A stretch of 64,000 nucleotides of DNA from Luteibacter yeojuensis (GTDB lineage: Bacteria > Pseudomonadota > Gammaproteobacteria > Xanthomonadales > Rhodanobacteraceae). The stretch is taken from positions 2,108,001 to 2,172,000 of the forward strand of contig NZ_JAAQTL010000001.1 of assembly GCF_011742875.1 (NCBI RefSeq), read 5' to 3'. Under the pieces are notes generated by a model, which ran no database searches, was not told where the DNA came from, and was given only the letters and a program-made list of their open reading frames with translations. Positions 28,723-33,062 of this stretch are shown here, piece by piece. Each line of letters opens with the position of its first letter. Positions within the stretch are counted from its first letter, which is position 1. Made by a program: the position numbers and the translations under genes.

Positions 28723-28881
28723 GATGGCCGGATGTCCGGTGGGGGCGGCGTGCGAAGCCTAGCATGGCGTCGCATTCCGTTCAGGGTCGTCAAGACGCCT
28801 CCGTTGTCGCGAGGCGGGAAGTAAAAGACAATGCCTGAAACCGGGGGGTTTCCGGTGCATCCCAATCCGTGGCGTCTGCTC

Positions 28882-30225
28882 ATGTCGTTTCGTTCCACGT
28901 CCCTGCTTGTCTGCTCGCTCGCGTGCGCCATCGCCGCTGCCCCGGCGCTCGCCGTCGCCCCACAGAACAATCCACAGAAACCGCCCGTCGTCCACGTCGA
29001 TCCGAGCGCGGCCAGGCTGCCCGCCGCACGGGTGAAGGAAACCGTCGAGAACTACAAGCGCTGGCTCGACGCCATCGAGGCGCGCGATGCCGCGCCGGCC
29101 GTCGTCACCGCCATCGTCGTCGACGACAAGGTCGTGTACGAGCGCGCCATCGGCTACGCCAACGCGAAGACGAAGGAGCCCGCGACGCCGGAGACGGTGT
29201 TCCGCCTGGCCTCCCTGTCGAAGGCGTTCGCCACCGGCGTCACCGCCGTGCTCGTGCGCGCCGGGTTCCTCAGCTGGGACACCAGGCTGATCGACACCAT
29301 TCCCTACTTCAAGCTCAAGGACATGCAGGCGGCCCAGCAGGCCACCGTGCGCGACATCCTGGGTCAGCGCCTCGGCCTGCCGCGCAACACGTACGACGCC
29401 CTGCTCGAAGCCGACGCCCCGTACGAAGAGCTGGTGCGCAAACTCGACGAAGTCGACATGTCGTGCAAGGTCGGCGCCTGCTACGGCTACCAGAACGTCG
29501 CCTTCAGCATGATCGGCGACGTGATCTTCGCCGAGACCGGCGACTATTTCTTCCGCCAGGTGGAGCGTCGCATCTTCACGCCGCTGGGCATGACCACCGC
29601 GAGCTACGGCCGCGACGCCCTCGAGTCGAGCAAGAGCTGGGCGCGGCCGCACCGCGGCAGTCCGCACCACTGGATTCCCTACGAGCCCAACGACAGCTAC
29701 TACCGCGTTGCCCCCGCGGCCGGCGTGAACGCGAGCCTGCGCGACATGGAACAGTGGTTGATGGCGCAGATGGGCGGACGCCCCGACGTGCTGCCCACGC
29801 CCCTGCTCGACGTGCTGCACGCGCCGGAGGTGGCGACACCCTCGGAGGAACGCTCGCAGCCGTGGCGGCGCGCGCGCCTCACCGATGCGCATTACGCGCT
29901 GGGCTGGCGCGTGTTCAAGTACGCCAACGAAGACCTGATCTACCACGCCGGCGCGGTGTCGGGTTACCGCACCATGATCGGGTTCTTCCCCAAGTACCAC
30001 GCCGGCGTGGTGACGATGTGGAACGCCGCCGGGCCCATGCCCGCCGGGCTGATGCCGATGGTGTTCGACAGCCTCCTGGGCCTGCCGCATGTCGACTGGG
30101 CGGGGGTGGACGGGTCGGCGCGCTCCGCGCCGGTGGCGAAGGCGAAGTCCGCTCCCATGAAGAAGGCCAAGGGCAAGGCGGCGACCCAGAAGAAGACCGC
30201 CTCGAAGAAAACGAAGAAACCCTGA
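28882..30225 (+). CDS. Beta-lactamase-fold serine hydrolase with Lys-rich tail
   Basis: A 447-residue exported serine hydrolase of the class C beta-lactamase/DD-peptidase fold. The signal peptide is MSFRSTSLLVCSLACAIAAAPALA; ATG at 28831 would add 17 residues before it and remains possible. Catalytic marks are SLSK (SxxK) after FRLA, YQN (YxN) in ACYGYQNVAFSM and HAG in IYHAGAVSGYRT. The last 29 residues hold 12 Lys and no acidic residue, forming a basic Ala/Lys tail like that of the MetJ-H1 fusion nearby. Such a tail may bind anionic surface polymers or DNA; this is inference. It could act on peptidoglycan peptides, D-amino-acid esters or other esters. A REP-like hairpin follows. Confidence 0.87.
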   Translation: MSFRSTSLLVCSLACAIAAAPALAVAPQNNPQKPPVVHVDPSAARLPAARVKETVENYKRWLDAIEARDAAPAVVTAIVVDDKVVYERAIGYANAKTKEPATPETVFRLASLSKAFATGVTAVLVRAGFLSWDTRLIDTIPYFKLKDMQAAQQATVRDILGQRLGLPRNTYDALLEADAPYEELVRKLDEVDMSCKVGACYGYQNVAFSMIGDVIFAETGDYFFRQVERRIFTPLGMTTASYGRDALESSKSWARPHRGSPHHWIPYEPNDSYYRVAPAAGVNASLRDMEQWLMAQMGGRPDVLPTPLLDVLHAPEVATPSEERSQPWRRARLTDAHYALGWRVFKYANEDLIYHAGAVSGYRTMIGFFPKYHAGVVTMWNAAGPMPAGLMPMVFDSLLGLPHVDWAGVDGSARSAPVAKAKSAPMKKAKGKAATQKKTASKKTKKP

Positions 30226-31650: not shown

Positions 31651-32235
31651 TTACTTGGCCTTGGCGGCCTTGGTCGCGCGAACCACCTTGGCGGCGGCGA
31701 CCTTCTTCGAAGCAGCCTTGCGCGGCGAAGCCTTGCGCGCGGTCTTCTTGGCGGGGGCCTTACGGACGGCCTTCTTCACCGCCTTCTTGGCGGCGACCTT
31801 ACGGGTGGAAGCCTTGCGGACGCTCTTCTTCGCGGCAGCCTTCTTCGCCGGCGACTTGCGGGTAGCGGCCTTGCGGGTAGCGACCTTGCGGGTCGATGCC
31901 TTCTTGGCCGGCGACTTGCGGGCGGCCGTCTTCTTCACGGTCGACTTCTTGGACGCCTTGCGGGCGGATTTCTTGGCAGTGGATTTCTTGGCAGTGGCCA
32001 TGGTTCGTCTCAGCTCCTCATCAGTTGGCAGTGGTTGCCCAGTAAAAGCGTGGAGGAACGCTTCGACCAGCAGGTCGCTGTTCGTAGCGTGCCTCAAATT
32101 GTTCACCTGGCGGCGAGTACGTTCATCGGAAAGCAGGCGGAGCACATGCAGCGGAATCGAGACTGTGATCTTGCGAACCGACCCTGCTTTGGAACCATGC
32201 TCCACATACGGCCTGATGAATTTTCCTGTTTCCAT
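31651..32235 (-). CDS. MetJ repressor domain fused to histone-H1-like basic tail
   Basis: A 194-residue protein in two parts. Residues 1-77 are a MetJ-type ribbon-helix-helix repressor domain: FIRPYVEHG, then [36 protein letters not shown] and [20 protein letters not shown] line up almost residue for residue with E. coli MetJ. The DNA-contacting Lys and Thr of the beta strand (KIT) and the corepressor-pocket Phe-His (FLHAF) are kept. In place of the normal MetJ C-terminus, residues 79-194 are a tail of Lys, Arg, Ala, Ser, Thr, Val and Pro, with 47 of 116 residues basic and none acidic, containing H1-like PAKK and TRK repeats. The start ATG has GGGGAA upstream and a TTGACA-type promoter. An internal ATG at 32001 could make the tail alone. 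It probably binds DNA both ways; regulon unknown. Confidence 0.88.
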
Positions 32236-32261: not shown

Positions 32262-32290
32262 AAGCTATTCCTGAACATTTCCGCTGTCAA
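32262..32290 (-). promoter_or_regulatory. Predicted promoter of the metJ-H1 gene
   Basis: On the minus strand a perfect -35 TTGACA (32290-32285), a 17-bp spacer and a weak -10 TAGCTT (32267-32262). Transcription would begin about 20 bp upstream of the ATG at 32235. Confidence 0.5.
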
Positions 32291-32666: not shown

Positions 32667-33062
32667 TCAGTGATCTTCGTTTTCGACGACCTCGGCGTAC
32701 CCGTCGGGCGAGAGCAGATTCTCGAGTTCGGTCTTGTCGGAGATCTTCAGCTTGAAGATCCAGCCGTCGCCATAAGCGTCCTCGTTGATCGTTTCCGGTT
32801 TGTCGTTGAGCTGTTCGTTCACCGCGATCACCTCGCCCGAAACCGGCGCATAGATATCCGAGGCAGCCTTCACGGACTCGACGACGGCGGTGCCGTTGCC
32901 GGCCTGCACCGAGCTGCCCACTTCCGGCAGTTCGACGTAGACCAGGTCGCCCAGCGACGACTGCGCGTGATCGGAGATGCCGACGGTGGCGGTGCCGTCG
33001 TCCTCGACGCGGACCCACTCGTGGGACTTAGCAAATTTCAGATCGCCGGGGATGTTGCTCAT
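32667..33062 (-). CDS. gcvH: Glycine cleavage system H protein
   Basis: A 131-residue lipoyl-carrier protein of the glycine cleavage complex, shuttling the aminomethyl group between P, T and L proteins in the cytoplasm. It begins [20 protein letters not shown], and the lipoylated Lys lies in [19 protein letters not shown]. Length is normal. The ATG at 33062 has GAGG eight bases upstream; the frame is open far upstream but without H-protein character. A TACAAT -10 hexamer lies at 33112-33107. gcvT is 1.5 kb away on the same strand but separated by an oppositely oriented gene, so the two need separate promoters. gcvP is not in the window. Confidence 0.95.

Follow-up and report, generated by a model that had tools for sequence, protein, structure and literature searches.

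The SAM-dependent repressor MetJ (PF01340; PDB entry 1cma and others) is among the closest described relatives of the protein treated here. The two share the repressor core and tandem MET boxes before metX and differ in what follows the core: canonical MetJ has a C-terminal region of its own, whereas here there is a basic tail of 116 residues with an embedded second start. A short MetJ that shares the core and also lacks the canonical C-terminus is found in two related families (f9 and f12 of our sample), with neither the tail nor the frozen codons described below. Lysine- and alanine-rich repeats without acidic residues are also seen in HC2 and other histone H1-like bacterial proteins (PF07382, NF038053), with the difference that the present tail scores under the curated cut-offs of these families and is joined to a repressor that precedes it. 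In HupB and HupS, HU proteins whose tails are rich in lysine, a folded domain that binds DNA is likewise combined with an H1-like tail; that domain is HU, in contrast to the ligand-controlled, site-specific repressor found here. To our knowledge no embedded start has been noted for HupB or HupS. In-frame internal-start isoforms of bacterial genes provide an N-terminally truncated product from one frame. The short product predicted here resembles them in this, but it would constitute a distinct module from a different class of protein, and its start region is frozen family-wide. MetJ, HC2-like proteins, lysine-tailed HU and internal-start isoforms are thus each known; a description of MetJ, an H1-like tail and an embedded start in combination was not found in those parts of the open-licence literature that were searched.

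The gene lies in the window, a stretch of 64,000 nucleotides of the Luteibacter yeojuensis genome (contig NZ_JAAQTL010000001.1, positions 2,108,001 to 2,172,000). This organism belongs to the Rhodanobacteraceae, a family of mostly soil bacteria. The features of the locus, in positions of the window, are as follows.

32667..33062, minus strand: gcvH-like upstream neighbour, assigned by eye, with a match in 93 of 114 family loci
32285..32290, minus strand: -35-like promoter box of metJ, TTGACA, which all 114 loci have in the 100 nt upstream
32262..32267, minus strand: TAGCTT, -10-like box 17 nt after TTGACA, assigned by eye
31651..32235, minus strand: full-length MetJ-H1-like fusion of 194 residues (open reading frame, profile matches, family alignment)
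32005..32235, minus strand: MetJ ribbon-helix-helix core, residues 1-77 (profile match, PDB alignment)
31984..32049, minus strand: embedded translation start region, with synonymous sites frozen from GCTTTTACTGGG through tail codon six
32014..32019, minus strand: Shine-Dalgarno-like GAGGAG within the MetJ code
31999..32001, minus strand: internal ATG, the first tail codon
31651..32001, minus strand: basic H1-like tail, residues 79-194, identical to the predicted free 116-residue product from the internal ATG

The frame of the fusion is uninterrupted over its 194 codons from ATG to stop. Residues 3-89 match the Pfam MetJ profile (PF01340) with an E value of 2.1e-38 and 130.7 bits (cut-off 25), and the NCBIfam MetJ equivalog model gives 135.7 bits (cut-off 110). 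Alignment to the PDB sequence of E. coli-type MetJ shows identity at 55 of 75 positions for residues 3-77 and at 44 of 51 for residues 20-70, with 37 residues at the functional positions agreeing throughout. Beyond residue 77 agreement falls to 3 of 15 aligned residues, i.e., the canonical C-terminal region is missing. The Lys and Thr of the KIT motif, which we take to be the base-reading residues of the strand, are kept, as are the residues that presumably line the SAM pocket. The match of residues 1-77 to MetJ, with KIT strand and corepressor pocket, had been pointed out in the preliminary description, and the alignment bears it out. The same holds for the replacement of the MetJ C-terminus by a tail with 47 Lys or Arg: counted from Met79, the 116 residues include 36 Lys, 11 Arg, 34 Ala and no Asp or Glu, with three PAKK and four TRK repeats.

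The label H1-like as applied to this tail refers to its composition only (Lys/Ala-rich, no acids). Membership in the HC2 family was considered and rejected, with 21.4 bits against PF07382 (cut-off 40) and 27.9 bits against NF038053 (cut-off 80). A profile search of the host genome gave no further match that could be a second, normal MetJ; the fusion is the sole MetJ match. The core is filed as MetJ and the whole protein as a MetJ variant, and the named database relatives are annotated as MetJ, met-regulon regulator or transcriptional regulator. An AlphaFold monomer model (one run, 18 sequences) had a mean pLDDT of 50.6, which is low confidence, and was set aside. Elsewhere in the window a serine-hydrolase-like protein (28831..30225, plus strand; assigned by eye) likewise ends in a short lysine-rich C-terminal tail, ...KKAKGKAATQKKTASKKTKKP.

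The fusion is a fixed trait of the family. A MetJ match was obtained in 117 of 117 sampled Rhodanobacteraceae genomes. Three of these (G055, G107, G111), where the gene is cut by contig ends, were excluded from codon counts, and in all 114 loci with a readable junction, from 26 genera, the tail is attached in frame. An identical in-frame fusion at every readable locus rules out a frameshift or an assembly error as its source, an objection that the preliminary description had itself raised. In a sample of the order, MetJ was found in 42 of 151 genomes (25 Rhodanobacteraceae, 11 of family f9 and 6 of family f12). The 17 MetJ of f9 and f12 (L039-L049, L065-L070) are short and tail-less, the canonical C-terminus also being absent; they stop soon after the core (one f12 ending, for example, is ...LPTDEELARPE), and inspection by eye of up to 420 nt downstream of these genes revealed no H1-like frame. 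Attachment of the tail is therefore not general in the Xanthomonadales; it is seen in the Rhodanobacteraceae and not in f9 or f12. A class sample had MetJ in 3 of 274 genomes, one of them the window's own. According to the comparative study PMC4239095, none of its four Xanthomonadales genomes has a listed MetJ, and SamR is proposed for them; the Rhodanobacteraceae differ from those four in having MetJ, and with respect to that account the known range of the repressor is widened.

In a MetJ tree built on 70 columns, with few forks resolved, the family sequences form one side of a 97/97 branch, and the tail most likely arose once. Perhaps it joined a MetJ that was already short; the canonical C-terminus is possibly dispensable, because the 17 tail-less proteins of f9 and f12 lack it too. 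The window's genome also contains a stand-alone lysine-rich gene (L003) whose product starts with MATTRKSAAKK, much like the tail, and an origin of the tail by fusion with such a gene is therefore plausible. In the product of another lysine-rich gene of this genome (L004), acidic residues occur in the N-terminal part and the long remainder is H1-like.

All 16 scorable loci have tandem MET boxes upstream of metX, directly before TTGAC and with 0-3 mismatches of 16, compared with 5-7 mismatches in a control of one shuffle per locus. The scan covered 30 loci; the motif that sets the frame was found in 16, and the other 14 were not scorable. Since MET boxes precede metX in every scorable locus, the MetJ half of the fusion probably still represses. 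A rise of MetJ protein together with a fall of methionine enzymes, reported for the proteome of a Rhodanobacter strain (PMC12146267), fits a working repressor. The idea that the repressor has simply been turned into a nucleoid protein does not agree with the MET boxes at metX or with the retention of base-reading and SAM-pocket residues.

MET-box sites also occur elsewhere. A site with up to 3 mismatches lies within 300 nt before metJ in 46 of 114 loci, compared with none in 114 single shuffles; the metJ of the window itself is not one of the 46. The first base of these sites is 147-191 nt before the start codon, about 100 nt or more above the conserved TTGACA, and they are perhaps a sign of autoregulation from a second promoter. 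The genome of the window has 10 MET-box sites (two overlapping) versus 2 with the pattern reversed, and among them only the metX site is at an evident methionine gene as judged by eye. MET-box-like sites were seen in this genome before two exopolysaccharide-type genes (L268, L269) and before a leuA-like gene adjoining a thrC-like gene (L273), all assigned by eye, and overlapping sites occur in an intergenic stretch (L264).

The joint between the core and the tail is strongly constrained at synonymous sites. It was surveyed in 114 loci from 26 genera of this G+C-rich family (65% in the window). The codons GCT TTT ACT GGG CAA CCA CTG CCA ACT GAY GAG GAG CTN AGA CGN, followed by ATG GCN, are near-invariant, and several are otherwise rare. 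For example, at the AGA position all 107 Arg are coded AGA versus 5% in the remaining MetJ code; CCA is used in 113 of 114 loci (16% elsewhere in the MetJ code), and ACT and GGG in 112 of 114 each (12% elsewhere for either). Some 66 nt are frozen, from 48 nt 5' of the internal ATG onward, a stretch that takes in 14 codons before the joint and several after it. Its upstream edge is sharp, the two preceding codons (Leu, His) being variable. The same is seen past the ATG, where ACT codes for Thr in 63 of 90 cases (tail body 11%) and AAA for the second Lys in 76 of 78 (tail body 10%). The ten letters CCACTGCCAA occur at 32025..32034 and at 31988..31997 (minus strand), flanking the internal ATG.

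With each of the 26 genera represented once, the 14-codon element has a pairwise codon identity of 0.86 versus 0.51 for the 61 preceding codons, and no other 14-codon stretch exceeds 0.59. When one aberrant genome (G006) is omitted the element has 0.89, a value reached by 0 of 20,000 position permutations; these ignore kinship, which is equal for all positions of the gene. Isolated codons elsewhere can be conserved too: AGC for Ser, located nine codons upstream of the reference His, reaches 0.92. The constraint is absent from 19 outgroup metJ genes (17 tail-less and two canonical), and GAGGAG alone is also present in two of the six tail-less f12 genes. In public genomes, among the matches listed (at least 119 stretches), 117 lie in metJ with Met following, one is cut upstream and one downstream; an occurrence of the element outside metJ was considered and dropped.

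What the joint codons contain is a putative translation start, overlooked in the preliminary description. In 92 of 113 genes GAGGAG pairs best of all sites with the anti-Shine-Dalgarno sequence, and in the other 21 a different 9-mer does better. GAGGAG is followed by the internal start codon after 12 nt in most loci and after 9 nt in 11 (eight of genus g14, three of g6); a spacing of 12 nt is longer than optimal. The tail opens with ATG in 113 of 114 loci and with GTG in the remaining one. Met makes up 0.16% of the 10,097 codons of the tail body, and at the joint it is constant although the residue before it varies (T, D, I, A or absent). The second tail residue is Ala in 111 of 113 genes, with GCG never used, and Met-Ala begins the tail in 120 of the best 120 of 1380 database proteins. 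Ala as second residue favours Met removal. With a start signal so well conserved inside the joint codons, the tail is probably produced on its own as well.

A search of 233 family genomes, with a gap of N{0,5} in the pattern and the sequence context of the matches checked in part, found the exact element with ATG in 217. The 16 others include seven with near variants that have the ATG (G010, G011 and five more), one cut just behind the element, one with a MetJ fragment only, and six with no MetJ match and an assembly completeness of 79-93%. This leaves G006 as the lone real exception, with GAT GAC GAG CTG AAG CGC GTC GTG GCC at the joint. It has the consensus codon at 39 of 61 positions outside the element and at 5 of 14 within it, and it branches inside the family part of the MetJ tree. 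In this genome the element and the ATG seem to have degenerated in parallel, but as GTG remains this is only suggestive. Replacement by another H1-like gene in G006 was considered and dropped, HC2-like matches being present in each of nine compared genomes.

RNA folding was computed for 25 loci with 60 random synonymous recodings each. In all 24 element-bearing loci the local fold is weaker than the average of the recodings; in G006 it is not. Openness from the Shine-Dalgarno site to the ATG is modestly raised, with a median of 27% of recodings equally open or more over the 25 loci, and is at least 0.90 in two of the 24 element-bearing loci. The effect is too weak for openness to be the full reason for the frozen codons.

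An unlikely alternative, though one to be taken seriously, is that the fusion is the only product and that the joint is bound by a small RNA, an RNA-binding protein or a transcription factor, the ATG then belonging to the bound site or surviving as a relic of the fusion event. The extent of the frozen stretch and its sharp upstream edge would suit a bound site, as would the weakness with which openness accounts for the stretch. No Rfam family reaches its cut-off in the window; the segment that holds the gene (L001) gave six matches up to E 5, all below gathering scores, and the joint was dismissed as a known RNA family. Nor does the genome have a further copy of the 20-nt core within 3 mismatches. 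A relic would leave unexplained why Met-Ala is kept amid changing neighbours, why the Shine-Dalgarno sequence is strong and why element and ATG decayed jointly in G006. A binding partner could also coexist with an internal start. A frozen stretch that begins 48 nt before the ATG exceeds the usual length of a ribosome-binding site, and because it is longer than start signals need, a further RNA- or DNA-binding function at the joint is possible.

Two further readings concern translation of the fusion itself. Ribosomes might pause at the Shine-Dalgarno-like site and the rare codons, which would give MetJ time to fold before the basic tail emerges. The position at the domain border, GAGGAG and the rare AGA, CGA and CCA codons are what would be expected of a pause, but pausing needs neither an ATG, nor Ala as second residue, nor frozen codons up to 48 nt upstream, and this reading is held to be very improbable. 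Still less credit can be given to programmed frameshifting at the same site, by which a tail-less MetJ like that of the related families would be released. A stop in the +1 frame within five codons after GAGGAG is present in 109 of 114 loci, and judging from its conservation a tail-less MetJ is functional in those relatives. This stop is absent in the other five loci, however, and since it follows from CTR-AGA it is probably a by-product; no recoding signal (a slippery run with an in-frame stop) was seen, and the conservation of the ATG would go unexplained.

The likely explanation of the locus is that metJ of the Rhodanobacteraceae encodes two proteins in one frame, the MetJ-H1 fusion and a free H1-like protein of 116 residues. 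A single mRNA from the TTGACA promoter would be read from two starts. From the first ATG the repressor would be made, its core recognising MET boxes and SAM acting as the corepressor; in this way the fusion probably keeps methionine genes repressed, while its H1-like tail probably adds non-specific DNA contacts. From GAGGAG and the internal ATG, the tail would be made as a small free protein that probably binds DNA like other H1-like proteins and may have a role in nucleoid compaction. With a shared mRNA, the supply of the H1-like protein would track that of the methionine repressor.

A wider proposal, put forward tentatively and with rather less confidence than the existence of two products, is that a SAM-responsive MetJ and a free H1-like nucleoid protein from one frame couple methionine/SAM status to nucleoid organisation via a single mRNA, and that the fusion may seed the H1-like protein at MET boxes. 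If both products are made, metJ of the Rhodanobacteraceae would offer a simple example of a local, ligand-controlled regulator linked to a nucleoid protein, and of a single annotated gene that conceals a second product.
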